Source of the DNA: a virus
DNA length: 39,623 nucleotides
IMG/VR virus record: IMGVR_UViG_3300017987_000182
Coordinates: 1 to 39,623 of that record
Direction: 5' to 3' (one strand)
Positions 3,310 to 39,623 of the stretch are shown here, piece after piece. Each line of letters starts with the position of its first letter. Position 1 is the stretch's first letter. The notes beneath the pieces were generated by a model. It had not been told where the DNA came from. It did not search any database and saw only the letters and a list, made by a program, of their open reading frames with translations. The translations under genes and the position numbers were made by a program.

Positions 3310-3701
3310 CTGTGGAACAATTCCGCGCGCTCCAGGAACTCCTGGGGCTTTCAAATAATGAGATCGCCAAGGAGCTGGGGTGTTGTGTGGGCGCCGTGGA
3401 AAAGTGGAGATCCGGCGCGCGCCTGGTGTCCAGGAGGACGGCCCGGGCCCTTGAGCTTTTGCTGGAAACGAAGGGGATCAACATGCGCCAAAAATTGGAG
3501 GAGTTAAGGCTCCAGCGGAGTGACAAGCGCAAGCGCAAGGAGAACGCACAAGTCAAAAAACTGATCCTGGAGGGCGATCTGGAAACCGCCCTTTTTGAGG
3601 ATCACGGATACCTGCGCCGGAAGGCGGAACAAATAGGGTGGAGCGTGGGCCGTTTGAAACAGACGATCGAACGTGTCCAGCGCACAAACCCGGGGATCTA
3701 A
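3300..3701 (+). CDS. HTH (XRE-like) DNA-binding regulator with a basic C-terminus
   Basis: This gene encodes 133 residues. Residues 5-58 form a typical phage-type helix-turn-helix: EQFRALQELLGLSNNEIAKE, then LGCCVGAVEKWRSGARLVSRR. This is the pattern of XRE/Cro-like domains, in which the second helix precedes a VxxWxxG turn. The C-terminal part is strongly basic (QRSDKRKRKENAQVKK) and ends in a second possible helical domain. It is the last gene of the P2 operon and is followed by the hairpin and terminator at 3707-3816. It could control its own operon through the TAGTGA sites at P1 and P2. That link is inference; a Cro-like or replication-regulator role is equally possible. Confidence 0.7.
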   Translation: MSLTVEQFRALQELLGLSNNEIAKELGCCVGAVEKWRSGARLVSRRTARALELLLETKGINMRQKLEELRLQRSDKRKRKENAQVKKLILEGDLETALFEDHGYLRRKAEQIGWSVGRLKQTIERVQRTNPGI

Positions 3702-13377: not shown

Positions 13378-14382
13378 TTAAACAAAGTCCACCAGCAAAC
13401 AGCACCAGGACCGGGTGGGCTTGTATTGCAGAATTATCCGGCGCAACCTGTCCCGCAATTCCGCGGGAACCGTTCCGCGCGTGTACTCCAGGTGCCTGAT
13501 ATCCACCTCATCAAAATTGGCGTGTCCGTCCTCCACAAATTTTGAATAAAGGCGGATCACGTTCGGGCCGCCTGGTGGGGTTTCCACGTTGAAAACCTGG
13601 CGCCCGGTTTTGTCTACTCCAAACCACAGGGCCTCCCACTGGCCGGTTGCTGAATTGAGAATATAGACAGCCGGGATCGTTCCGTTCCCGTCCGCCCACA
13701 CGTACCCACGGACCGGGCGCTGTTCTGTTATTGGAGGCGCGATCGCTTGCTGGGCGTATGATCCGGATTCGCGCAAGGATCTTAGCGAACCCCACACGGT
13801 CACAAGTTCAAACAGATCGAAATATCGGCCAGTATTTACCCCCGCCGCCTGGAGCGTAAATTCAGCTGTCCGCAGGCCCGTTCCCGGCTGTATTCCGATC
13901 CGCGTGTTCGTGTTTGAAAAAAGAAAATTATCGATCACGGTGGCCGGGGTGTCCTCCAGATCATCGATGAAGAGGTGGATCTGATTTCCTCCCAGGCCTC
14001 CCCGCTTTTGCCAGATCACCTGGTGGGCTAGTCCGTCATTAATTTGGGCCGCGGATTGTAGCTTGATCCCACGTTCCGGCCTTTCATAGGTGAGCTTTCC
14101 ACCCTCGATCCCAAACCAATAATTATCCGGATCGCCCGCTTGCCACTGACTGTGGAAAACCCCGTCCGTGTCCGTGGTTTTGACAAGCATAAACACCTGG
14201 TAAACGCTTTGAGTTTCCGCGGCGTCCAGGGCCTTTTCGCCGGTGTCCAAATAGTCCCCGGCGCTCCCGTCCAGATAGATCGAGCGCCCCCAGTCCTGGA
14301 TCGCGTAGTGTCCACCGTACAGCGTCCCGTCCGCCGCCCTCACAGGATCGGCGGGTCCGTCCGTTATATCGTACAGCCCCAC
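13378..14382 (-). CDS. Second half of the large tail protein, probably expressed by -1 frameshift
   Basis: This frame is open for 334 codons from a GTG at 14382, but it has no convincing ribosome binding site of its own and overlaps the end of the 924-aa gene by 19 nt. Its first residues (GLYDITDGPADPVRAADGTL) continue, without a gap, the homology between the end of the 924-aa protein and that protein's own residues 150-225. A lectin-like sandwich domain follows (HQVIWQKRGG, IHLFIDDLED), then RPVRGYVWADG and FGVDKTGRQVF. The last 30 residues (ELRDRLRRIILQYKP, then SWCCLLVDFV) look like the usual end of a YmfQ/gpI-type tail protein. It is therefore best read as the C-terminal part of one fused 1253-aa protein. 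Confidence 0.7.
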   Translation of the reverse strand: MGLYDITDGPADPVRAADGTLYGGHYAIQDWGRSIYLDGSAGDYLDTGEKALDAAETQSVYQVFMLVKTTDTDGVFHSQWQAGDPDNYWFGIEGGKLTYERPERGIKLQSAAQINDGLAHQVIWQKRGGLGGNQIHLFIDDLEDTPATVIDNFLFSNTNTRIGIQPGTGLRTAEFTLQAAGVNTGRYFDLFELVTVWGSLRSLRESGSYAQQAIAPPITEQRPVRGYVWADGNGTIPAVYILNSATGQWEALWFGVDKTGRQVFNVETPPGGPNVIRLYSKFVEDGHANFDEVDIRHLEYTRGTVPAELRDRLRRIILQYKPTRSWCCLLVDFV

Positions 14383-17138
14383 CAGGACAAAAAAGCGTTA
14401 TCACTGATCAGGCTGGTGAGGGCCCGGAGGACTAGGGCGCCGTCCGCGGTGGCCGTGAATGAAAAATCGAAAGGTTGCCACGTAAAGGCGCTGGTTCCCG
14501 TCCACCTCACAGTTGTGGATCCGATCGGTCCTGTTTCGACTTGTGGAACACCGCCTCCGCCACTCCCTCCGCGGCCAAGGCCGATCACCCTGTACGTTTT
14601 CCCGTTTTCGATCACGTTCTGATAGGCCCCCGGGTTGTTTGTCGGGTTTGGGGCGATCCGCAGGTGTTGAGATGTTCCCGTGTACGGGGCGTTTAAAAAC
14701 TTGGCCAGGCTGGCGCCGTTCAACGGTAGCCAGTGATCCGCGGAGGGGGAGGACATGGGGCCGTCTGGAAGTAGGTTTTTCCAGGCCGCGCTTGGGATCT
14801 CTGTTTCGTTCCCCTGGAGGGTAAAGGGCCACCACTGGGTCCGGGTTTCCGCGAGCGGTTGTGGAAACACCGGGATCTGTGGATCGGTGTTGCTCACCGC
14901 CTCCACTTTCAGGGACTGATCGCCGGCCTGTTTGATCGCGGTGTCTTTTGCCGTGGCGCTGTTCGGGCCGGCTGGCCAGTTTGTCACCCCGGGATCCTCC
15001 ATGTCACCGTCCAGGATATTGGCCTCCACTGCGGGGGCCCGGTCCTCACAAACAAAAAAGAAGTATCCCCACAGATCCGGATCGTCCGGGATCACGTACT
15101 CCTTGGGCGTGCGCTCCATGGTTCTGAAAAAACCACAAACCGCCTTTTGATTTCCGCAAAAAGCGATCGCCCCGTTGCACTGCATTTCGTACGCGGGGCG
15201 CTGATCAAAAATGTCCGGGTTCACCACCAGCTCTTCGCACAAGAGGATCGCCGGGTCCACCTTTGGATCGTTTCTGAAAACCTTTAAATTGAAACCGGAG
15301 GTTTGGAGGGCGTTTTCCAGGTTGTCATCCGATCCGGTGAGGTTTCGGGCGTACCTTAACAGCTTTAAATAATTACGCCGGATCGTTTCACTGATCCCCT
15401 CATTGGGAACAATGCCGTGATCCTTTTCCAAGTCCTCCAGCTGCTCCGTGGCCGCTGGATCCCGGAGGGTGGCCAGGTTTTTTAGAAAAAGGTAAACCGC
15501 GTCCGCCCCGTCCCCCATGCCGTCCAGGAGCTTGTAAAAGTCCCGTTTTATGTCCGGTTTCCAGGCCTCCCCTGGTGGGAGGAGTCCGATCAGGACGTCC
15601 CGCATTTTTACGATCGCATTTGAAGGGGGCCCGGGGGTGTCATCCTCCACGGTAAAATCGTCAAAATTACAAAAACCGTCCTCCGAAAATTTTACGCCCA
15701 GGACCAGTTCGTCCACCCCGTCCGGGAGTACCAGATCGATCTCCTGTTCCGGCTGGCCGTCCACCCCAAACCATACGATCTCATTGTCGGCCCACCCTGG
15801 AGCGTGGGCCGCCACCACAGGAACCGAACCGGGCCAGCCGTTGGACCATGCCCACCCGCGGACCCGCTGGGGCGTTGTGGTGGAGGGCGAGATCAGCTGA
15901 TAGGCGTTTCCGTTATTCAGGGCAACGCTTCTAAGCGCATCATAGGTGCCTTCCCAAAATATTTGATCCCAGTTGGCGCAAGCTCCGCCAGATATAGACA
16001 GATCGCACGGTAAGGAAACACCGCCACCCAGCGCCGGATCAATTCCGATCTGGGTATCCACGGAGGGGAAAACAACAGCGTCAATAGGCCCCGGCGAGTT
16101 GTCCAGCTGGCCGTCAATCCAGATTTCGATCTTTGCGTCCGGTTTTCTTTGCCACGCCACAAGGTGTGGGCGCCCGTCATCGACTCGCGTTGTCCCTTTC
16201 ACCACCAGGCCGATCCCCGGTTTTCTGTACACCGCCACGCCGTTTTCAAGGCCAAAAGTAAAACGGGTGACGTCCCCAGAATCCCACTGGGAATTTAGGA
16301 TCCCGTCACTGGATCGCGTCCTTAAATAGTTGATCCAAAGGTAAACGATCTGGGCGTCACCCGGGAGAAAAAAGGACTCCCCCAGGTTGACATAATCGTT
16401 TTGGTCCTGGATCTGTATGGACCGCCCCAGGTCGCTGTAAATTTTTGTTTGCGATCCGTACACCGTGCCGTCCGCCCACAGGACAGGGGAGGAGGGCCCC
16501 GCGGTGATATCGTAGATCCCGATCCGGTTTGCTTCGGTGGAGGTTGTCCCAGTGTGGCGAACAATTAAGCGTGTTTCCCCTACAGCCGGTGAAAATGTAA
16601 AATCAAAATTACCGTCACCGGTTGCCCTCACTGTGCTGGATCCAGCGTTTCCTGTTTCTATGCTTGGGTTATTAAATGCGCCCCCCAGAACTCTGTACGT
16701 TTTTCCCACTTCGAAAATGTCCGCCGCTGTCATGGCGGCGGCGCCTGCGGTTCCGTTGTAAGCCACGTCCAGGCGTCTGGGTGCAAAGGCGTCTAGGGGT
16801 TCGATCGGCTTGCTCAATATGGCACTATTTAATGCTGTCCAATCGCCCGCGGATCCCTTTTGACAGCCCGGATCTGGAAGTAGATTTTTCCAGGCGTAGT
16901 TTGGCATGACGCTACCGGAGTTGTACAGGTAAGACATTGATCGGATCAGGGCGTCCGGCTGTCCAAAGTCAACATACTGGGGATCGGTGAACCCGTTCAG
17001 ATCCACCTTGAGGGATTGCGCCCCCGTTTTTTTCACGGTGGGATCCTTTGTCAGGACCGTGATCCCTCCTCCTGGGTATTCACTCCAGGCGGCGGTTCCC
17101 GCCTGCTCCATGTTTCCGTCTATTAGTCGATTAGACAT
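14364..17138 (-). CDS. Tail protein with YmfQ/Mu gp48-like domain between duplicated lectin-like modules
   Basis: This gene encodes 924 residues in the zero frame. Residues 1-505 form a carbohydrate-binding-like module (AWKNLLPDPG, GKTYRVLGG, then a LamG/concanavalin-like part with HLVAWQRKPD and IEIWIDGQLD, then FGVDGQPEQ). Residues 509-700 resemble Mu gp48/P2 gpI/YmfQ (MRDVLIGLLPPGEAWKPDI, QLEDLEKDHG), the baseplate protein that links fibres. Residues 705-924 start a second copy of the first module (ILDGDMEDPG, AWKNLLPDGP, GKTYRVIGLG). That copy stops abruptly at residue 924 but continues in the -1 frame. The gene overlaps the baseplate J-like gene by 8 nt, as expected for Mu gp47-gp48 order. 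Fusion of lectin modules to this baseplate protein is unusual. Confidence 0.8.
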   Translation of the reverse strand: MSNRLIDGNMEQAGTAAWSEYPGGGITVLTKDPTVKKTGAQSLKVDLNGFTDPQYVDFGQPDALIRSMSYLYNSGSVMPNYAWKNLLPDPGCQKGSAGDWTALNSAILSKPIEPLDAFAPRRLDVAYNGTAGAAAMTAADIFEVGKTYRVLGGAFNNPSIETGNAGSSTVRATGDGNFDFTFSPAVGETRLIVRHTGTTSTEANRIGIYDITAGPSSPVLWADGTVYGSQTKIYSDLGRSIQIQDQNDYVNLGESFFLPGDAQIVYLWINYLRTRSSDGILNSQWDSGDVTRFTFGLENGVAVYRKPGIGLVVKGTTRVDDGRPHLVAWQRKPDAKIEIWIDGQLDNSPGPIDAVVFPSVDTQIGIDPALGGGVSLPCDLSISGGACANWDQIFWEGTYDALRSVALNNGNAYQLISPSTTTPQRVRGWAWSNGWPGSVPVVAAHAPGWADNEIVWFGVDGQPEQEIDLVLPDGVDELVLGVKFSEDGFCNFDDFTVEDDTPGPPSNAIVKMRDVLIGLLPPGEAWKPDIKRDFYKLLDGMGDGADAVYLFLKNLATLRDPAATEQLEDLEKDHGIVPNEGISETIRRNYLKLLRYARNLTGSDDNLENALQTSGFNLKVFRNDPKVDPAILLCEELVVNPDIFDQRPAYEMQCNGAIAFCGNQKAVCGFFRTMERTPKEYVIPDDPDLWGYFFFVCEDRAPAVEANILDGDMEDPGVTNWPAGPNSATAKDTAIKQAGDQSLKVEAVSNTDPQIPVFPQPLAETRTQWWPFTLQGNETEIPSAAWKNLLPDGPMSSPSADHWLPLNGASLAKFLNAPYTGTSQHLRIAPNPTNNPGAYQNVIENGKTYRVIGLGRGGSGGGGVPQVETGPIGSTTVRWTGTSAFTWQPFDFSFTATADGALVLRALTSLISDNAFLSWWGCTI
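14388..14394 (-). other. Candidate -1 ribosomal frameshift site TTTTTTG in the tail protein
   Basis: On the minus strand the zero-frame codons GCT TTT TTG contain the heptamer T TTT TTG, which fits the X XXY YYZ slippery pattern. A -1 slip reads on as GTC CTG GTG GGG CTG and joins residue 917 of the upstream protein to the downstream frame, giving 1253 residues. The internal repeat aligns across this point only if the shift occurs. A single missing T in the homopolymer (mutation or sequencing error) would give the same picture. Confidence 0.65.
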
Positions 17139-18300
17139 AGATCACGCTTATGAGTTTTGACAGCTCACCCAGGCCCAGGGTGTAACTGGCCAGGAACGTG
17201 TCCACCTCCAGCCCGAACCCGATCCCGCCAGCGGCGGCGCCCAGGGGCGTGAGCTGGTCCTGGACCACGGACGAAAGTGTCAGATCCGTGATCGTGTCCG
17301 TCCTGTCAATTTCAGGATCCAGGCCCTCCATGTACGGAACGATCGATCGGAAGTATTCCTCCAGGGCGGCCTCCACCGCGTCCTTTGTTTTTGTTTCGAT
17401 TGCCGGATCCACGATCAGATCCCTGATCTCCACGTAGAACCCTGTGCGGTAAATGCTCTCGACGTGGAGCTGTTCGTCCGTGGTCCCCAGGGCCGGGCGT
17501 GCGATCCCAGTGTCCGGATCGAAAAGGATATTTTCCCGGACTTCCTGGAGGAGGGCCGGGGGTGCGATCCCGTCCGGATCAATGTCCGCGTCCGCCTCCA
17601 CGTACACGGTGACATCGCCAGGGATCGACAGCTCCCCCACCGGCGCCCCGGAATATGGGAACACGCGGAAAACGCCGGCCACCGCCTCACCCCACACCCG
17701 GAAGTCGCGCCCGTTGCTCCCACCGCCCTGGGCGTGTAGTTCGTTCAAAATGCGGCGCCTGTAGGCCTCCACGTCCTCCCGTTCCGCCCCCACGTTCAGG
17801 ACGTCCGTGATCTCCGCCACACGTCCGGCGCCGGCGATCTCCTTGCCGATCGTCATGGTTTCGCCCACGTTCAGGTTCCCCGCCACGCCGGCAAACTCCG
17901 CGGCCACATTGATCACGGCCACCCCACCGGACGGGATCGCCTCCGCCTCCGAAAAGTACCGCGCCCCGTTGCTGTCCCCTATGAATTCTGTTTGGGCCGA
18001 TATCGGGACCGTGCTTTCCAGCTCGATCTCCAGGCGCGCCGCCTCGGCTGGTTTCCTGGGGGTGTCTAATTCAACACCGAAGGGATTTTCCAGCGTGTCC
18101 TCATTGGCGGTTACGGCAAAATTTTGCCGGGCCCGTTCCGCCGCATAGCGGTTCAGCTCCGTGTAATCCATGGAGGTGACAGCGGCCAGGACGCGGAGGA
18201 AGGCCACCTCATTTAGGGGGCTTTCCTGATTTAATCTGTTTTCCAAATAGGCCAGGTTTCGATCAAAAACTTCTTTAGTGGTGGGGACTACATAGGCCAT
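17131..18300 (-). CDS. Baseplate J-like protein (Mu gp47 family)
   Basis: This gene encodes 389 residues. The protein has the normal length and layout of baseplate J/gp47 proteins: an N-terminal helical part (FDRNLAYLENRLN), a central beta-rich segment with GVAVINVAAEFAGVAGNLN, and the typical REDVEAYRRRILNELHAQGG followed by GSNGRDFRVWGEAVAGV. It forms the wedge of the contractile-tail baseplate. It lies between the Mu gp46-like and gp48-like genes in the standard order and overlaps the latter by 8 nt. Confidence in the family is high. Confidence 0.9.
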   Translation of the reverse strand: MAYVVPTTKEVFDRNLAYLENRLNQESPLNEVAFLRVLAAVTSMDYTELNRYAAERARQNFAVTANEDTLENPFGVELDTPRKPAEAARLEIELESTVPISAQTEFIGDSNGARYFSEAEAIPSGGVAVINVAAEFAGVAGNLNVGETMTIGKEIAGAGRVAEITDVLNVGAEREDVEAYRRRILNELHAQGGGSNGRDFRVWGEAVAGVFRVFPYSGAPVGELSIPGDVTVYVEADADIDPDGIAPPALLQEVRENILFDPDTGIARPALGTTDEQLHVESIYRTGFYVEIRDLIVDPAIETKTKDAVEAALEEYFRSIVPYMEGLDPEIDRTDTITDLTLSSVVQDQLTPLGAAAGGIGFGLEVDTFLASYTLGLGELSKLISVIYV

Positions 18301-19293: not shown

Positions 19294-20547
19294 TCAGCTC
19301 CATGGGTCCACCAGGGCCTCCCCGGTGTACACCTGCGGGGGGACCAGGGACAGCTTGGCCGGCGTTCCGGCGTCACTGAACGTGTACTCCACACCCTTGA
19401 TCAAAAAATCGAAACCGTCCGCCAGGAACATGGACTTGGACACCACAGAAACGATCGTGTTTTTCCGCCACCTGTTCCCGTTCGGATCGTACCAGCTGTG
19501 AACCGGAAAATCGAAGGCCATGGAGTCCGCGATCGCCTTGGAGCGTTTCCAGTCCGCCGCGGCCTGGATCTCCCCCAGGCTGGTTTCGTCCGCGGTGAAA
19601 GTGTGGAGCCTGGCGCGTCCCACGTTTTCGTCATTGGCGATCGCCGTTTTGGTTTTCTTTTTGGGTGACTGTCCGATCGCCCTGTACGTGCTCCAGCGGG
19701 CCCTCCCGTCCCACCTCATGGCCATGGACGTGTAAGGGGGGCGCCCCTCCTCAATGGTCCCCACAGGGGCCCCAGTGGCCGCCTGTGTGATCATAAGCTC
19801 ACCCGCTGGGCTGGCGGTGAGCAGGGCGCCCCGCTGGGTGGCCAAGTCGGCCAGGTGGTCAAAAATTGTCGCATCCGGATCCGCGTTTATCCGATCGAAC
19901 TGCGGATCGCTGTCCAGCTCAAAAACCACCTTGACACCGTGGGGGGCGCACAAGTCCCGCGCGCGCTGTTCAAGGGTGATCTTTTTCGCCTCATATGGGG
20001 GCTTGATCGAGCTGTCGATCACGTCCGCGGTGGGGCTCCAGCCCTCCAGGGTGGAGGTGAGGCCCTGATCACTAAGTGAGTTTTCCGGGGTGTAGATCAC
20101 GCCGTCCGCGGCCAGCTCGCCGCCCAGGTACACCTTGGCCGGCGTGTATCCGTACGGGCGCAAAACCTCCCGGAGGCGGTTGTCCTCCGCGTCAAAAAAC
20201 AGAACGGCGGAAAACCCGATCGCGGCCATGTCCAGATTGTCCGTGACGGTCCCGGAAATCGCCGGGAACTCCTGGGAGTTGATCACCAGGGTGAAGTCGT
20301 CCGGATCCTTGCCGGGGATACTATCCCCCAGGATCTCCCGTTTTAGGGCCTCCTTGTCCTGGTCCTGTGGTATGTTCAGAACCTCACCAGGGAAAACCTG
20401 ATCGGGTGTGCTCCCCCGGAGGTTGCTTTGGTTCGCCTTCCAGATAATGGTAAACTTTCCACCGTCCCCATATGCGGCCTTGGCGATCCCGATCAGGGTG
20501 TCACCCTTCTGGACCGTGTACGGTTTGCCGGGGGTGGGCCTACTCAT
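19294..20547 (-). CDS. Baseplate hub protein with LysM domain (Mu gp44 / gpD-like)
   Basis: This gene encodes 417 residues from the ATG at 20547, 9 nt after GGGAGG; the in-frame TTG at 20556 is too close to that site. Residues 9-60 form a LysM domain (YTVQKGDTLIGIAKAAYGDG, then VFPGEVLNIPQ). The remainder follows the tail-hub fold of Mu gp44/P2 gpD: DFTLVINSQEF at the first barrel, ITLEQRARDLCAPHGVKVVF in the middle and FLIKGVEYTFSDAGTPAKLSL near the end. Fusion of LysM to the hub replaces the separate small LysM protein of some phages. It overlaps the gp43-like gene by 8 nt. Confidence 0.85.
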   Translation of the reverse strand: MSRPTPGKPYTVQKGDTLIGIAKAAYGDGGKFTIIWKANQSNLRGSTPDQVFPGEVLNIPQDQDKEALKREILGDSIPGKDPDDFTLVINSQEFPAISGTVTDNLDMAAIGFSAVLFFDAEDNRLREVLRPYGYTPAKVYLGGELAADGVIYTPENSLSDQGLTSTLEGWSPTADVIDSSIKPPYEAKKITLEQRARDLCAPHGVKVVFELDSDPQFDRINADPDATIFDHLADLATQRGALLTASPAGELMITQAATGAPVGTIEEGRPPYTSMAMRWDGRARWSTYRAIGQSPKKKTKTAIANDENVGRARLHTFTADETSLGEIQAAADWKRSKAIADSMAFDFPVHSWYDPNGNRWRKNTIVSVVSKSMFLADGFDFLIKGVEYTFSDAGTPAKLSLVPPQVYTGEALVDPWS

Positions 20548-23770: not shown

Positions 23771-24345
23771 CTATTTTTTACCTTTGATCGCCCGTTTTCG
23801 GGCCCCTTCGAGGATCTTGTGGCAATCGTTCCAGTATTTGAGATCGTGAAATCCCATGCGCTTGATCTCCGAAGGTTGCACCCCCTCAGAAAAGACGTTC
23901 AGCACCCACTGATCGATCCGAGGGGTTACACTTGTAAAAAAATTGTACCCAGGGTTTCCGCTATTCCTAGATCGACACCTTTCAATTTTAGGATATTGGA
24001 CAGCCCCACCTCGGACAGGTTGCCCAGGAACATGTACAACCGCGTGCGATCGTCGTCGTCCTCCTTGGCGCCCACCTTCGATCTGGCGTCCACCTCCCGG
24101 TAGTCCAGGGCGGTGATCGGCTCATCTTTCCCGATCGGCTTTTTCAAGGTTTGGACAACCTTGATCACTTCGTCCCCGGTGATCTCCACGCGGTGATTCA
24201 TGACACCGCGGGTTAGCTTGTTTCTGGCCGCGCGGATCGCGGTCCGCTGATCTCCGTCCTCATAATCATCCGGATCGATCTCGTAATAATCAAACAGCTT
24301 GGCCACCTGCTCCGCGGCCATTTCCTTGGAAAGTTTTTTTCCCAT
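23771..24345 (-). CDS. Tail assembly chaperone, -1 frameshift product
   Basis: Slipping by -1 at TTTTTTA (23941-23935) lets translation pass the zero-frame stop and run to a TAG at 23771-23773, giving 191 residues. The added 54 residues begin TSVTPRIDQWVLNVFSEG and end KRAIKGKK. They have no start codon of their own near the junction and finish 1 nt before the tape-measure ATG. A helical extension of this size matches the second chaperone of lambda (G-T), P2 (E-E') and Mu tails, where both forms are needed in a fixed ratio. Gene order, slippery site and length agree, so this is a confident call. Confidence 0.85.
23926..24345 (-). CDS. Tail assembly chaperone, zero-frame product (Mu gp41 / gpE-like)
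   Basis: This gene encodes 139 residues from the ATG at 24345 (AGGTGG upstream). The protein is acidic and helical (KEMAAEQVAKLFDYYEIDPDDYEDG), typical of the shorter of the two tail chaperones that bind the tape measure. It lies between the tube protein and the tape measure as in Mu and P2. Its last codons, ATT TTT TTA CAA GTG TAA, contain the slippery heptamer T TTT TTA, which produces the longer form. Confidence 0.8.
   Translation of the reverse strand: MGKKLSKEMAAEQVAKLFDYYEIDPDDYEDGDQRTAIRAARNKLTRGVMNHRVEITGDEVIKVVQTLKKPIGKDEPITALDYREVDARSKVGAKEDDDDRTRLYMFLGNLSEVGLSNILKLKGVDLGIAETLGTIFLQV
23935..23941 (-). other. Programmed -1 frameshift site TTTTTTA
   Basis: The heptamer T TTT TTA is in the correct phase relative to the chaperone gene (codons TTT TTA), with the zero-frame stop two codons downstream. 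The same heptamer is used by some well-known -1 frameshift sites. The open -1 frame fills the gap between chaperone and tape measure exactly. Confidence 0.85.
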
Positions 24346-32094: not shown

Positions 32095-33572
32095 TAGGAA
32101 ACCCTCCAAACTTCGATCCAGGCGTCTTTTATGCTTTGGGTATTACCGCCCGCGCCGTCCTTCCATTGAACTATAAAAGTTTTCGCCGCCCCTGTGAACG
32201 TCACCTCATGGACCGCCCCGCGGGTGGGGTAATTATCCGTGGCCACTTTGGGCCTGTAGGGTATTTCAGCCCCCACCACCGCCGCGTCCGTGGAGTTATA
32301 GAGCCTTACCTGGCCCACCTTGTCCGTGTTTGTGACCATGGCCCCCCAGGCGATCCGATAAGTTCCAGTCAGGGCCGGGGTGGTTAGGGTGACTTTGTCC
32401 TGGTACGCGGCCAGGGTGGTTTGGGACTCCGCCAGGGACTCCTGGCGCTGGTAATCTTTTCCGAAAACCGCCGCCGCTATGTGGGCGTCAATCGCCGGGT
32501 GGGTGTTCGTTCCAATGTCCGCCAGCTCCGTGTGGCTTGTCACCTGGGCCGGGTTTAGATCGACAGTAAAAACAGATTCGATCGCCGCCGCGGTGGCCTG
32601 GGATTCCTGAAAAATCAGGCGCCCGATCAGCTTGCCGTGTACCTGGAGGCGGAGCGGAACTGTGGACGGGGGCGGCGCATTTTCCGCCGCGGCCTGGGTG
32701 TTGTAATTCCCCTGGCCGTACAGCGCCACCAGGGAGTTGTCCAGCTCCAGATACACCCACACGATCCCGAAGTTGTTGACCCCCAAATTTTGGAGGGTTC
32801 CCGATCCGTCATCGTACTGGGTGTTGTCCCACTGGGTTTGTGCGGCCACCTTCGTGAAACCGCTGGGCGTGGCCCGGTAATAGTAATCGAAAGTGTCCGC
32901 CCCGCTGGTGTCCTTGGCGGCCTGGTAAAACTCGTTTAGACCGTCGTAAAATTCACCAGCGGACACGGTGAGATTCCTTGTGCCCGTTTCACCCAGGATC
33001 AGGCCGCCCAGGCGGTCCGCCCGCCTGATCGGTTCTGTTTCATAAAATCGTTCATACGCCAGGGTGATCGCGTCCGCGGCGCGCTGTGGGTTGTTCACTA
33101 TGTGAAGTGTTCCGCCTTCGTTCACAACGGATCCCAGCCTAAAGGTGGTGGTCCAGTTCCATGAGTCCGCGGCCTGGATCAGCACCTGGGGGGATCCGGC
33201 GTTGTAATCGATCCCCACATGGCGCACGGTGTCCGCGGGGATCGCCTGGCCGGCCAGGGCGGACCACTCAAAAGATTTCAGATCGCCCGTGTGGCTGGCG
33301 GTGTCACGAATGAACCCCGCGCCGGCTGCGATATCGATCGAGCCTCCGCCCGCATCCGTTATGTATCCGGAGCCCGTGGCCCCAGCTCCTCCACCCAGGC
33401 GGATCGCGTCCTGGACGTCATCGATCGCCGGCGTCCCCAGTTTTTCAATGTTCACCTGGGAGGCGTCACCGATCTGGCCTACGTGGGAGGCCTCACCGTG
33501 GGGCCCCACCGGGCCCGCCGCGGCCCCGCCACCGTCACCTATTAGATCAGTTTTTCCCTGGTTCACACTCAT
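32094..33572 (-). CDS. Fibre-like virion protein located in the head module
   Basis: This gene encodes 492 residues. The N-terminus is Gly-rich with a short collagen-like piece (GPVGPHGEASHVGQIGDAS), then LGTPAIDDVQDAIRLGGGAG. Large Gly/Thr/Asn-rich beta regions follow, with a motif-poor C-terminal domain (LTTPALTGTYRIAWG, FIVQWKDGAGGNTQS) that looks like a carbohydrate-binding or trimer-forming sandwich. The composition is that of a tail or head fibre. Its position between the portal and protease genes is unusual for a tail fibre, so a head-associated fibre is a real possibility. Confidence 0.55.
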   Translation of the reverse strand: MSVNQGKTDLIGDGGGAAAGPVGPHGEASHVGQIGDASQVNIEKLGTPAIDDVQDAIRLGGGAGATGSGYITDAGGGSIDIAAGAGFIRDTASHTGDLKSFEWSALAGQAIPADTVRHVGIDYNAGSPQVLIQAADSWNWTTTFRLGSVVNEGGTLHIVNNPQRAADAITLAYERFYETEPIRRADRLGGLILGETGTRNLTVSAGEFYDGLNEFYQAAKDTSGADTFDYYYRATPSGFTKVAAQTQWDNTQYDDGSGTLQNLGVNNFGIVWVYLELDNSLVALYGQGNYNTQAAAENAPPPSTVPLRLQVHGKLIGRLIFQESQATAAAIESVFTVDLNPAQVTSHTELADIGTNTHPAIDAHIAAAVFGKDYQRQESLAESQTTLAAYQDKVTLTTPALTGTYRIAWGAMVTNTDKVGQVRLYNSTDAAVVGAEIPYRPKVATDNYPTRGAVHEVTFTGAAKTFIVQWKDGAGGNTQSIKDAWIEVWRVS

Positions 33573-33844
33573 GGGATCACCACCATGACTTTCCCCTCCT
33601 CACCTATACACCGAACGTACACATCTATGGCAAAGGAGGAGCTGATCACCGCTGTGGTGGTGTCATCAAATAGCGGGGCCTGATCAGTCAGGGGGCTGGC
33701 GGGTGGGCCGGGGTTTCCGGTGTCCCGCGTGGTGTAAATGTACTTGGCCCCCTTCTTTTCAAAAAGCTGGCCGCTTTGGACGTTCTGGGCCACCAAAACC
33801 CAGGTGTCCGCTGGTGTGATATCGACAATTAAAGGATCCGCCAT
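33569..33844 (-). CDS. Small hypothetical protein after the portal gene
   Basis: This gene encodes 91 residues; its start overlaps the portal stop and its stop overlaps the fibre-like gene start, which indicates translational coupling. The sequence alternates polar and hydrophobic residues (PADTWVLVAQNVQSGQLFEK, AIDVYVRCIGEEGKVMVVIP) and looks all-beta. A decoration, plug or fibre-base protein is possible. No family is recognised. Confidence 0.55.
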   Translation of the reverse strand: MADPLIVDITPADTWVLVAQNVQSGQLFEKKGAKYIYTTRDTGNPGPPASPLTDQAPLFDDTTTAVISSSFAIDVYVRCIGEEGKVMVVIP

Positions 33845-35505
33845 TATTTTTGCTCCCAGTAGGGGATCGGCAAGGTTTGGTACTCCCTGGCCAGCTCCTC
33901 ATGGTTTGCGGCCACGTCCCCGCGATCCAGGTTTTTGGATTCCTTGCGCCCGGTGCTCACACCGATCGCCATGTTTTCACGCGCGGCGCGCGCCTGTTTC
34001 CAGGGATCGATATTTGGAACCGGCGATCCCATATAGGTGGCGTTAAGCCAGGCCGCCTGGAGGCGGGGATCCGCCCACCCCGGGGCCTTGATCCTCCCCG
34101 CCGCGATCTCCCCGGCCAGCCACGCCCTGTAAACTGGTGTCAAACAATCGGTTTCTTTTTCGTGGCGGAGTATTTCCGCCACCCTCCACAGCATAACCAG
34201 GGCGGCCCGGCTGGCGCTGTAGTTGGCGTTGAATTTTTGGAGGAGGACTTCCAGCGGCATGGAGTTTGCGGCGCACAGGTGGGAGGTGTAAGCCTCCACA
34301 AATCGATCATAGGCCTGGGCCGGGCTGGTGTTCTCCAGTGACTTTAGATCCTCACCCTCCTGGAGGTTGAAAACACCCACGGATCCAGGTTGCCGGAACG
34401 TGGCCTCCGGGAGTTCCACATATTTGACGTATTCAGACAGGGGGAGCACACTTTCAGGCGTTACGCCCTCCGCCTCCCCCTCCACCAGATCGTCCTCCGG
34501 CCCGGCGCCATAACGCCGCGCCATGTCCCCCATGGGATTGGACGCCGGATTGTCCGGGCTGGGTTTTGTGTACAGCGCGATCGTGGACTGATTGATCGCT
34601 TTGTGGATCTGGGACAGGGTGAAATCGGACAGGGCCTGGCAATCCTGAACAATGGACGCCAGCCGGGAGATCCCGCGGCCCTGGCCTGGGTAGATTGATT
34701 GGAACACATGCGCCATCATTTGACGCCCGGACTTTGGGCCCCAGGCCGGCACGGTCCGGGGGACGTACCGCTTTTGCCCCGGCACGTACACCCACACCTT
34801 GTACCCCACCGCACGGCCCGCGGCGTCCCGCTCGATCCCGTCCACCTGGCCGGCGTTGAACCCGGTGGTGGACACCACGCCGCCGCCGCGGATCTGGTTC
34901 GGGTCCAGCAACTGGAGCTGCAGGGGGTTCTGGAGATCGCGGCGCATGGAATAGAAAAACCGGAGGAACCCCTCACCGTCACGCTGGGCGCACACCTCGA
35001 TCGTTCTTTGCATTTGGTACCAGTTCTGGGTTTCGTCCCGGCTGGCCCGCTTGTCCATACACCAGGCGTGAAACCTTGGCCCCACGTCCATGGCCCAGGA
35101 GCTGGCGGCGGCTTGCGTAATTCCCAGAACACTGGCGATCGGGTTCGGTTGACAGATTAGGCCCGTATCAATCACCACGTCCGCCCACCGCTCAACCATG
35201 GCGTGGGCCACTACACTGTCGTGGTAAATGTTCCGGCAATTTTGCCGGATCGCGCTGGTGTACAGGGCCGGGCTGTATCCGGTGGCGCTGATCCCGTTCG
35301 GATACTTAGAACCGTCTGAACCCACGCCAAAAGAAAAGGGGACGGTTGTGTCAACTGAACGCGCGCGGCCCTGGGAGCCTGGAGGGTCTGGGGGCGCCAT
35401 GGGGATCCGCACGGTGTCCCCCCTGCGGACGATCCGCAAAAATTCTGTTCCCGCCTCCACGGTTCCCGGCCTGTCCGGGTTTAGTTTTTCCGCTGGTGTG
35501 CTCAT
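33844..35505 (-). CDS. Portal protein (lambda gpB family)
   Basis: This gene encodes 553 residues. It follows the lambda portal pattern: an N-terminal clip with HAMVERWADVVIDTGLI, then RDEIQN-like GDETQNWYQMQRTIEV, RDGEGFLRFFYSMRRDL, LLDPNQIRGGG, and the C-terminal block PLEVLLQKFNANYSASRAAL with later AWLNATYMGSPVPNIDPWK. It forms the dodecameric gate at the capsid vertex, binds the terminase and passes DNA. The start overlaps the stop of the gpW-like gene (ATGA). It is downstream of the terminase and methyltransferase as in lambda-type packaging modules. Confidence 0.9.
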   Translation of the reverse strand: MSTPAEKLNPDRPGTVEAGTEFLRIVRRGDTVRIPMAPPDPPGSQGRARSVDTTVPFSFGVGSDGSKYPNGISATGYSPALYTSAIRQNCRNIYHDSVVAHAMVERWADVVIDTGLICQPNPIASVLGITQAAASSWAMDVGPRFHAWCMDKRASRDETQNWYQMQRTIEVCAQRDGEGFLRFFYSMRRDLQNPLQLQLLDPNQIRGGGVVSTTGFNAGQVDGIERDAAGRAVGYKVWVYVPGQKRYVPRTVPAWGPKSGRQMMAHVFQSIYPGQGRGISRLASIVQDCQALSDFTLSQIHKAINQSTIALYTKPSPDNPASNPMGDMARRYGAGPEDDLVEGEAEGVTPESVLPLSEYVKYVELPEATFRQPGSVGVFNLQEGEDLKSLENTSPAQAYDRFVEAYTSHLCAANSMPLEVLLQKFNANYSASRAALVMLWRVAEILRHEKETDCLTPVYRAWLAGEIAAGRIKAPGWADPRLQAAWLNATYMGSPVPNIDPWKQARAARENMAIGVSTGRKESKNLDRGDVAANHEELAREYQTLPIPYWEQK

Positions 35506-35780
35506 CCGTACCGCCTAAGCTTCATGGATACCAGGCCCCCGCAATTCAGGCGCCGGTACAGCTGATCGATCTCACCCTGTAGGCTGTCGATCTGTTCCTT
35601 CAACTCCGATAGCTTGCGATTTTTGAGGCTTTGCGCGCCTTCGTTGCTGTCGAATTTGTACTGCTCCGAGGCGTCCGCCAGGGCCTCCGTGTACGTGGTG
35701 TTGACGATCTCCAGCTGTGCTTCTTTTTGTTCAATCCGGGCCAGGATCCTGGCCCGCTGGGCAGGTGTTAAACAAGCCAT
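35502..35780 (-). CDS. gpW-like head-tail joining protein
   Basis: This gene encodes 92 residues. It is helical, Glu/Gln-rich and coiled-coil-like (ARILARIEQKEAQLEI, ELKEQIDSLQGEIDQLYRRL) and lies between the terminase side and the portal, where lambda has gene W. It may be the head-completion protein, though gpW proteins are usually shorter. No Shine-Dalgarno sequence precedes the ATG. A strong promoter lies just upstream, and its predicted start of transcription is only a few bases before the ATG. Confidence 0.6.
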   Translation of the reverse strand: MACLTPAQRARILARIEQKEAQLEIVNTTYTEALADASEQYKFDSNEGAQSLKNRKLSELKEQIDSLQGEIDQLYRRLNCGGLVSMKLRRYG

Positions 35781-35789
35781 ATTAGGGGA

Positions 35790-35818
35790 ACTGTATTAAT
35801 CCACCGGCGTTTTGTCAA
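35790..35818 (-). promoter_or_regulatory. Promoter for the portal operon, near-leaderless
   Basis: On the minus strand TTGACA (35818-35813) is followed after 17 bp by TACAGT (35795-35790). The predicted transcription start is about 35783, 3 nt before the ATG at 35780. This lies in the only gap (96 bp) between the methyltransferase and the gpW-like gene. A leaderless or nearly leaderless mRNA would explain the absence of a ribosome binding site. Confidence 0.6.
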
Positions 35819-35876
35819 CAATTCCGCGCATTTACCGCACCAGGTGAGGCGATCAAGTGTGACAAAAGGGCCAAGA

Positions 35877-36878
35877 CTAAAAGAGGGCCAGCTGGGCGGT
35901 GTCCTTGGCGATCCGGGAGCAGGCGGCCCGGTAAAAATCCGGATCTATTTCGATCCCTGTGGTTTGCATGCCGGCCAGGTGGCACTCCACCACCTCCACA
36001 CCCGAACCCATGAAGGGGACCAGGGCGCGCCCGTCCTTTTTTGCGGTGGTGGTGACGATCGCCCGGGTGAGGGTGGGCGGTTTTTGTGTGGGGTGGTCCT
36101 CCCGGCTGGTTTCGTGGGCCTCCTGGGAATACTTTAAAACGTCCGTCAATTTTAGCGCATTATTGAACGGGCGGCGCTTGCTTTCGTACCCTTCGATCAG
36201 GCCGGTGTATTGCCCCATGAACCGATCGTGTTCCTGTTTCAAGTCCGCCCACTGGCGGTACCCGGGCCAGGCACAGATCCCGAAGTGCTCCACCAGCTGG
36301 AGGTAAACCTCCTCCATGGGGAGATCCCACTGGGTGGATCCCCAGTAAAAAGCATGTTCCGCGCGGCGGTGGCCCAGGCGCTGGTTTATTCCCTTGATTG
36401 ACAGGCCGATCCACTCCTGGAGCCCCCGGAAATATTCCCGCAGTTCCTTAAAGTTTTCCTTGTCCAGTTTGATCTCCTGTAGGCCTGTCCTGTTCACCTC
36501 CCTGGAGTAAAACAGGATCCGCTCAGTCACCGGCATGAAGGATCGGAACTCCTCCGAACCGATCCGCGTGCGGCACTCCGTTTTCTCCCACACTAAAACA
36601 TTTTCCAGGTTCAGATACTGATCGAGGACCACCTGGGAATAGGCGATCTTTTTGGCGTGCCCGTACCAGAACAGGGAGCCCGTTTTTTTCAGGACGCGGG
36701 TGATCTCCCTGGCCCACCTGTCCACGTCCTGGAGGTACGCCGCGAAGTCCGGCCACTGGAAATCAAAGTCCCCCTTTGTTTCAAAGTAGGGCGGATCCGC
36801 AATCACCAGATCGAAGTGTTCCGCGGGGAGGGTGGGGAGGACTTCCAGGCAATCGCCGCAAATCAGATCCGGTGTCAA
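35877..36878 (-). CDS. DNA methyltransferase, N6-adenine/N4-cytosine type, beta-class order
   Basis: This gene encodes 333 residues from a TTG that overlaps the terminase stop (TTGA). The catalytic motif IV DPPY is near the N-terminus (ADPPYFETKG, 27-36). The AdoMet-binding FxGxG motif is near the C-terminus (VPFMGSGVEVVE), with the variable target-recognition part between. That is the beta-class order (IV, TRD, I), and DPPY usually means N6-adenine. The target sequence cannot be read from the protein. No cognate endonuclease is adjacent, so it is probably an orphan enzyme that protects phage DNA or marks it for packaging or expression. Confidence 0.85.
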   Translation of the reverse strand: MTPDLICGDCLEVLPTLPAEHFDLVIADPPYFETKGDFDFQWPDFAAYLQDVDRWAREITRVLKKTGSLFWYGHAKKIAYSQVVLDQYLNLENVLVWEKTECRTRIGSEEFRSFMPVTERILFYSREVNRTGLQEIKLDKENFKELREYFRGLQEWIGLSIKGINQRLGHRRAEHAFYWGSTQWDLPMEEVYLQLVEHFGICAWPGYRQWADLKQEHDRFMGQYTGLIEGYESKRRPFNNALKLTDVLKYSQEAHETSREDHPTQKPPTLTRAIVTTTAKKDGRALVPFMGSGVEVVECHLAGMQTTGIEIDPDFYRAACSRIAKDTAQLALF

Positions 36879-38857
36879 TTTTGAACCTTTTTTCTGGCCG
36901 TGGCCTTGATCATGTAATCCAAAACCGTGCGCCTGGTGATTGTTTGGAGCTGGTCCAGGGTGGCGCCCCGCTCTTTTAGTTTTTGCCTAAATTCGAAAAC
37001 TTCACCCTCCAGGAAAACATCCGCGGCGCACAAATTCATGGCCCGGAGATCTAGTGCCTCATTTCGCCGGCCCTGGGGACAGTGGAAGGATCCGTCCTTC
37101 CGTTTTTCCTCCGCGCGGAGCATCTCAAAATAGTGATCGGGGGTGTCCCGTGGAAAATCGCAAAACCCGGGGCGCTGTGGATCCCGGTCCTGGCGCTTGA
37201 TCCGCAAATTGTTGTAAAGGTGGGTTTTGTAATAGTTCGTGCTGATTTCGTACAGCGTGATCTCGGGGCTGATCCTGGCCGCGCGGAACCTCCGGAAATT
37301 GGAGGCGGTGACGGGATCGCCTTTTTCCGCCTTCCGGGTTTTCAGGGCCTGAAAACCTTTGGACGGGAAACACCCACGCCACCCGCTCCCACAGAAACGG
37401 TAAACCACGTCCGTTTTGAAACCGGAGTCCACCAGGATCAAAAACGGCATAAATTCGCGCCCGTCCGATCGCGCGTACTTGATCCGCGTTTCCTGGCCCC
37501 ACTCCCGGAGGGATTCCCACGCGCCGCCAAAAGGATCATCGATCGCCCCCTCGATCGTGCGGTAATCGATCAGCCACGTCCGGTACCCGATCCCATGGCC
37601 GCACACCTCCAGCTCCAGGCGCGCGGGATCCCCGTCCCGCTTTGTACCCTCCTGGACGTCCACGGCCATGGTCAAATACAGGACGCCGTCCGGGACGTCC
37701 CGCATTTTGTACGCGCCCCGCAAATCGATCAACGTGTTCAAGTCCGGGCGCGTCCCCTGCTCGATGTACGGCTGGCCCTCATAAAGGTTTTTAAAACTCC
37801 GCATGCCTTCCGGTTTTTGCTGGGCCTTCGTGTACTCCTCGAAAAGTTCAAACCAGGACAGCATGCCCACCGGGCTGTAAAGGCTTGACAGCTGGTAGGA
37901 ACGAAACACGGCGGACTGGCTCACCGCGGTGGGCCTCCACTCCCCGGCGATCAGCATGTCGGTTTTTTGGTGATTGAAGATCGCGTCATGGCAAAATTCG
38001 CACAGATAGTAAACGCGCTCCAGGCGCCCGGCCTTCCGATCCGCCTTGATCCCGTGGTTCGCGTGCTCCGCCTCCCAGGTGAGGATCTGGGCTTTCCCGC
38101 AAAGTGGACACGGGACAAAGTACTGGCGCTGGTCCCCCAGTTCGTACAGCGTGAAGATCGCGGAGTCCCCGACCACGGTTGGCGTGGAAATATCCAAAAC
38201 CTTGCGCCGGTTTCCCCAGGCGTTTGTCCGGACATAGGACACGCTTAAAAAATCACCCTCCCCGGTCCGGAGCATGAGCGGGGCCCCGTCGATCTCATCC
38301 CGGATCAAAACCCGTTTCGAATCGGCCCGGAGGGAGGCCGCGGACTGGGCGCTGGCCATGTCCAGGCACCCGCCCGAAAACTCCTTAACAAAAATTTTGT
38401 CACCGGACCGCCTGGAAAGTCTGTTTTCTGTTTGCGCGAAAATTTTTGAACGGATCCCGCAGCTGTCGATCAGGGGCTCCAGGCGCTTGATCGCCCACTT
38501 TTCCAGCTGGTCCGCGGTGTTTGAAATGAACAGGATCTCCGCGGGGCTTTCATCCATCCAGTAAGCCAGGACGTTCTCCGCCGCGGCGGTGAGCCCCAGC
38601 TGGCCCGCCTTCATTACAACCGTGTGCTGTATGTGGCTGTGCGGCGCCATGTTGTCCATGATCTCCACCGTGTACGGTGTCCGCCTGTTTTCATAGAACC
38701 CGGGGAAAGGCGTGGAGGGTGGCATGACGCGCCGATCCTCCACCCAGTCAGAGATCAGCCGGCTGGGGGGCTCCACTGGTTTTTTTTCATTTTCAGCACG
38801 AAGGAACGCCAGATCGCTGGCGCGATAAATAACCGCCCGGAACGCTTTTTCCGTCAC
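36875..38857 (-). CDS. Terminase large subunit (lambda gpA family)
   Basis: This gene encodes 660 residues from a GTG overlapping the small-subunit stop (GTGA), with GGAGGTG upstream. The ATPase has a deviant Walker A, KAGQLGLT (83-90), with the Lys at the start as in lambda gpA, and Walker B VLIRDEID (183-190). A Cys-rich insert (CPLCG ... CEFCH) is usual in this family. The C-terminal nuclease part includes LTMAVDVQEG and later FLILVDSGFKTDVVY. It cuts concatemers, probably at cos sites, and pumps DNA into the prohead. It lies first in the late operon after the small subunit. Confidence 0.9.
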   Translation of the reverse strand: MTEKAFRAVIYRASDLAFLRAENEKKPVEPPSRLISDWVEDRRVMPPSTPFPGFYENRRTPYTVEIMDNMAPHSHIQHTVVMKAGQLGLTAAAENVLAYWMDESPAEILFISNTADQLEKWAIKRLEPLIDSCGIRSKIFAQTENRLSRRSGDKIFVKEFSGGCLDMASAQSAASLRADSKRVLIRDEIDGAPLMLRTGEGDFLSVSYVRTNAWGNRRKVLDISTPTVVGDSAIFTLYELGDQRQYFVPCPLCGKAQILTWEAEHANHGIKADRKAGRLERVYYLCEFCHDAIFNHQKTDMLIAGEWRPTAVSQSAVFRSYQLSSLYSPVGMLSWFELFEEYTKAQQKPEGMRSFKNLYEGQPYIEQGTRPDLNTLIDLRGAYKMRDVPDGVLYLTMAVDVQEGTKRDGDPARLELEVCGHGIGYRTWLIDYRTIEGAIDDPFGGAWESLREWGQETRIKYARSDGREFMPFLILVDSGFKTDVVYRFCGSGWRGCFPSKGFQALKTRKAEKGDPVTASNFRRFRAARISPEITLYEISTNYYKTHLYNNLRIKRQDRDPQRPGFCDFPRDTPDHYFEMLRAEEKRKDGSFHCPQGRRNEALDLRAMNLCAADVFLEGEVFEFRQKLKERGATLDQLQTITRRTVLDYMIKATARKKVQN

Positions 38858-39522
38858 TCGATCACCTCCGCCCCTATTTCCTCAAATAGATCATTTATCA
38901 GCCGTTTAATGTGGGCCAGGCTCCGGTATACTTCGCGCTCGATCCGCTCCCCGATCTCCATGATCACCTTCTGATCATCTATCCCGGCCAGGCCGGCGAT
39001 ATCGGCGGGGAGCTTGTCCGCCAGTGTCTTGAGTTCGTTTGTGTCGATCAGGTACATTTTCGAGAACAGACGCCGGACCAGATCCCGATCGATCAGCTCC
39101 TGGCGCTCCTTGTCCGTTTTAATCCGGAGGGCGTGGATCTGCTCGATCGTTTTCAGCTTGTCCGTGGTGGCCCTGGACAGGGCGCCCACGTTCGCCGGTA
39201 GCTCCCCGCTTTCCCAGTCAATGTCCTGTTCCGGGGTGTAGCCTTCGCCGCGATCCCCGTCCTCCTCCCCCTGGGTGGTCTTGGCCTTTTTCCTGTTCTT
39301 TTTCGCGCCCGGTTTCGGCCCGCGCTTTTTCTTCTTAGGGAAACCCCGCTTTATTTTGGCGGAGTTCCTGGCGGCGTTCTCCTGAAAATGTAGATTTGTT
39401 GGGTGTCCCGGATCCACGCCGCGCTCCGCCCGAATGACGCGGCCTTCCTTGATCGCCTTGCTGATCGCCTGGGGGCTCACACCCACCAGGGCCGCGTACT
39501 TGTTCTGTGATAAATACCTCAT
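38854..39522 (-). CDS. Terminase small subunit (Nu1-like)
   Basis: This gene encodes 222 residues. The N-terminus is a helix-turn-helix of the Nu1 kind (MRYLSQNKYAALVGVSPQAI, then KEGRVIRAERGVDPGHPTNL). A highly basic linker (KKKKRGPKPGAKKNRKKAKT) follows, then an acidic region and C-terminal helices (HALRIKTDKERQELIDRDLV) that should bind the large subunit. It recognises the packaging site, which in lambda-type phages lies just upstream. The ATG at 39522 has no Shine-Dalgarno sequence. An overlapping frame from 39583 is not preferred. Confidence 0.8.
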   Translation of the reverse strand: MRYLSQNKYAALVGVSPQAISKAIKEGRVIRAERGVDPGHPTNLHFQENAARNSAKIKRGFPKKKKRGPKPGAKKNRKKAKTTQGEEDGDRGEGYTPEQDIDWESGELPANVGALSRATTDKLKTIEQIHALRIKTDKERQELIDRDLVRRLFSKMYLIDTNELKTLADKLPADIAGLAGIDDQKVIMEIGERIEREVYRSLAHIKRLINDLFEEIGAEVIE

Positions 39523-39623
39523 TTTTCAAAACAAACCGGGGGAGGTTTAGGGGTGTCAACTCCAAAATATCAATTTCAGACATGAAAAATTAAGTCCCAG
39601 AAAGGGCCGCTGCGACATATAGG
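39523..39623 (-). promoter_or_regulatory. Leader region of the terminase operon; candidate promoter and possible cos site
   Basis: On the minus strand TTGACA (39559-39554) lies 32 nt before the terminase ATG, and a poor -10 candidate GTTTGT (39536-39531) follows after 17 bp. This is the same distance to the ATG as at the portal-operon promoter. In lambda-type phages the cos site lies just upstream of the small-subunit gene, so the last 60 bases may belong to it. No palindromic cohesive end can be defined here. Confidence 0.35.

Follow-up and report, generated by a model that had tools for sequence, protein, structure and literature searches.

A gene in the baseplate region of a phage known from a metagenome breaks at a six-T run, with its two parts in different reading frames. 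This raises the question of whether ribosomes change frame there by design or whether the run is simply one base away from its functional length. We addressed this in the window, which is the whole IMG/VR record (39,623 bases), a metagenomic viral contig. Our analysis suggests that the split gene looks like an ordinary case, a one-base sequence error or mutation and not a deliberate ribosomal frameshift.

Location of the frame change

The window carries genes for terminase, portal, S49 protease, capsid, tape measure and baseplate proteins (GP46-like and J proteins included), followed by the gp48 locus, and this predicted order fits a tailed phage whose baseplate is Mu-like. The reading frames at the locus, which bear out those given by the sequence-only reading, are as follows.

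17138-14364, minus strand: zero-frame ORF of 924 aa given by the ORF check, with its stop at 14366
14364-17138, minus strand: layout of this ORF, with module copy 1 at residues 1-506 and the gp48/YmfQ core at 507-705
End of the same ORF, minus strand: start of module copy 2 (~210 residues), with 8 unrelated residues ahead of the stop
14397 to 13378, minus strand: open stretch of the -1 frame, completing module copy 2 and ending in the 32 C-terminal residues of gp48
14382-13378, minus strand: 334-aa ORF in the -1 frame, with a GTG start at 14382
14388-14394, minus strand: six-T run TTTTTT (14394-14389) followed by G, giving an in-phase T TTT TTG, where the frame changes

The zero frame reaches its stop at 14366, and the -1 frame opens only at 14397, just past stops at 14403 and 14400, which confines the frame change to the 32 shared bases at 14397-14366. 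The heptamer at 14394-14388 is the sole slippery sequence within this overlap. Furthermore, a codon-usage model trained on the phage's other genes and blind to the repeat put an abrupt switch at 14399-14388. The sequence-only reading had named this in-phase heptamer as the switch point, and the codon-usage result matches it. It had also stated that the downstream frame has no ribosome binding site of its own, which holds for the 334-aa ORF: no such site or start signal was found for it, whereas the following gene carries AAAAGGAGA. We rejected separate expression of the 334-aa ORF, since it lacks a start signal and starts within a module.

When the two frames are joined they give 1,253 residues, in which a module of ~500 aa occurs twice, at residues 1-506 and at fused residues 705-1215 (34% identity over 517 aa, E 2e-74). 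Taken by itself, the stretch of copy 2 read solely from the -1 frame still aligns with copy 1 at E 1e-45, far beyond chance. As judged from this homology, which crosses the break, both frames together clearly make up one protein, as the sequence-only reading had held. Its claim of a module duplication was right as to the two copies, but the repeated unit is larger than the residues 150-225 that it had given, with the alignment extending over 517 aa. Where copy 1 corresponds to the junction, its frame runs on unbroken.

Two further features of the window concern RNA structure and slippage. A hairpin lies around the T run (14365-14416, minus strand) and is moderately unusual, with a z of -2.4 for the 114-nt fold. 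It encloses the run and does not follow it, and could make polymerase slippage or sequencing problems more likely there. Elsewhere, the tail-assembly chaperone gene (23771-24345, minus strand) has a T_TTT_TTA at 23941-23935 and a -1 extension to 23771, a layout that is, in its predicted form, the standard G/GT-type frameshift arrangement.

The gp48 core and its relatives

The following features bear on the identity of the protein.

17131-18300, minus strand: baseplate J protein, the upstream neighbour, used for finding relatives
15619-17138, minus strand: module copy 1, unbroken, with weak laminin G similarity
15025-15618, minus strand: Mu gp48/YmfQ baseplate wedge core (phrog_203, phrog_4920, PF10076), reaching the conserved Y-IP-DP--W-YF motif
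13378-13475, minus strand: gp48 C-terminal segment, fused residues 1222-1253, present in the -1 frame only

The 924-aa ORF matched phrog_203 at E 8e-6 and PF10076 at E 0.003, the latter under the curated cut-off. We found that a gp48 profile built from 35 relatives matches the fused protein at 515-620, 638-701 and 1222-1253, indicating that the second module sits within the gp48 core, before the C-terminal segment. By itself the match at 1222-1253 is weak, with E 0.0007 for the 334-aa ORF in a search space of three sequences, but it ends exactly at both C-termini. These last 32 residues bear out the earlier suggestion that the downstream frame ends like a YmfQ/gpI domain. The protein thus shares with the Mu gp48/YmfQ family the core domain, as found by profile match, the conserved C-terminal segment and a place directly after baseplate J, which overlaps the gene start by 8 bases. 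Unlike that family, it has two lectin-like modules of ~500 aa and a frame break in the record, and its Pfam match falls below the cut-off.

Relatives were found via baseplate J and the gp48 core, and comprise annotated phages, one MAG contig and 50 viral contigs. They are distant, with baseplate J proteins ~30% identical, and lack the two lectin-like modules of the window, and the T-run site has no counterpart in them. In all ~40 with a complete gene, gp48 is a single uninterrupted ORF. It almost always ends in a segment like RRDEFEALCLKICPAQQWLGILVEYV, after which three contigs (L030, L033 and L047) have an extension. In one of these, gp48 (L030:9176-11437) is extended at its C-terminus by apparently two laminin G-like lectin regions. 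In another contig the gp48/YmfQ core (L039:8589-10283) has an insert of ~300 aa made of propeller-like WSPELxLFVAVAxSGTGNRVMTSPDG repeats. Like the gene in the window, these two have large repeat or lectin-like regions inserted or appended; unlike it, their frame is continuous, and their modules are unrelated to those described here. These two genes show that additions to gp48 are tolerated in one continuous frame.

The modules themselves matched little else. Searches with the 924-aa ORF, the 334-aa ORF and the two-copy alignment found no relatives in the viral and genome collections scanned, and plasmid and DNA-level phage searches likewise gave none. There was no lectin-module match in 22 related records, and a PDB profile search with the module returned nothing. 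Copy 2 has carbohydrate-binding similarity, and a structure model of copy 1 reached a pLDDT of 34, too poor for use.

Explanations for the split

The explanation that fits these results best is that a single gene at the locus would encode a baseplate wedge protein of the Mu gp48/YmfQ type, ~1,250 aa long. Of its two related lectin-like modules, one would lie ahead of the gp48 core and the other in a core loop just before the C-terminal segment. The gene would be split in the record because the T run at 14394-14389 is off by one base from its functional length, most likely through a metagenomic assembly or sequencing error and less likely through a real recent mutation or a within-population variant. 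The functional product would be the full-length protein from a continuous frame, with the 924-aa product an artefact or a broken protein. Judged from homology and frame, a single gp48 gene with two lectin-like modules and a one-base change in T-run length is very probable.

A sibling contig from the same population, L002, provides an example of such a change. It corresponds to window positions 33157-39620 (6,465 bases) with zero substitutions and one homopolymer difference, an A7 near its position 3585 that is A6 in the window (36037-36042). The extra A breaks an N6/N4 methyltransferase gene in L002, where the methyltransferase profile of 221 positions is covered at 2-182, compared with 2-219 in the window. 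In this comparison the error lies in L002 and the window copy is intact. Assemblies of this phage thus do differ at times by a single base in a homopolymer. Seven other near-identical IMG/VR contig pairs (48 kb) had zero indels, indicating that such errors are not common in general, and no other broken genes were apparent in the window. A search for the DNA pattern across the junction, with variable run length, gave no second contig that spans the T run, so that error and real mutation are not separable and the probability of programmed frameshifting is lowered only.

Programmed -1 frameshifting at T_TTT_TTG would lead most ribosomes to the 924-aa protein and a fraction to a 1253-aa product with the second lectin module complete and the gp48 C-terminus present. 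In its favour, the heptamer is in phase, has the right direction for -1 slippage and lies precisely where homology and codon usage change frame. The same phage has the standard site in its chaperone gene, and frameshifted adhesin-like (Ig-like) extensions are known in phage structural proteins (PMC5009743). However, an in-phase slippery heptamer occurs in 22 of the 61 homopolymer runs of six or more within this phage's genes, and a second T_TTT_TTG lies at 19408 inside an intact gene, which makes the heptamer a weak argument. Module copy 1 is without such a site. No Shine-Dalgarno-like element was found ahead of the heptamer, with a pairing of only -2.3 kcal/mol. The downstream fold was no better than shuffles (z -1.1), and the chaperone site, as a positive control, gave a z of -0.6, so the test is without power. 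RNA folding was dropped as a frameshift test, the chaperone site failing it likewise.

The products themselves also speak against a programmed shift. The 924-aa form would stop inside a module and lose half of it, together with the gp48 C-terminus that every relative keeps. In known phage frameshifts, such as lambda G and the T7/T3 capsid, the unshifted product is a complete protein, which this one would not be. The lambda G/GT shift of tail chaperones, present in this phage at 23941-23935, likewise uses a -1 T_TTT_TTN heptamer, but there the short form is a whole protein and the shift itself is conserved from phage to phage, whereas the short gp48 product is cut inside a domain. The Ig-like extensions of capsid and tail proteins likewise form an adhesin-like region that is reached only through a frame change. 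Known frameshifted phage extensions follow a complete protein (reviewed in PMC5009743), whereas the part missing from gp48 includes the core protein's own end. Furthermore, the frame change is not conserved: an intact single frame in relatives, which the sequence-only reading had named beforehand as evidence against programming, was found for the gp48 core in all ~40, though these are distant and lack the modules. Its proposal that frameshifting usefully balances short against long lectin-bearing proteins is unsupported, given the single ORF of the relatives and the truncation of the short form. Programmed frameshifting at this site is therefore unlikely. It is similarly doubtful that the full-length adhesin-bearing wedge would be made only via a -1 frameshift in the second module, with virions carrying a mix of short and long forms.

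Phase variation would have replication slippage in the T run toggle the full-length adhesin-bearing baseplate protein within the population. A homopolymer does sit at the break, the hairpin that encloses it is matched in stability by 3 of 200 shuffles (z -2.4), and in another gene two contigs of this phage differ in homopolymer length. Yet a tract of six or seven bases is short for phase variation, the off state would cost a conserved baseplate segment and not the adhesin alone, and there is no evidence of two states at the T run, which makes this explanation very improbable. Transcriptional slippage, in which a base added in some transcripts would restore the frame, has the six-T run at the break in its favour, but six bases are short for productive polymerase slippage and intact genes of the window contain many runs of the same length, so that it is scarcely credible.

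Implications for phage baseplates

If the frameshift were true, it would be a new way of setting adhesin number on a phage baseplate. With a one-base change as the preferred explanation, the locus offers a caution, in that a one-base change in a homopolymer of a metagenomic viral contig reproduces the programmed-frameshift signature exactly. That the gp48 wedge protein carries lectin-like insertions is a real point, of modest interest.
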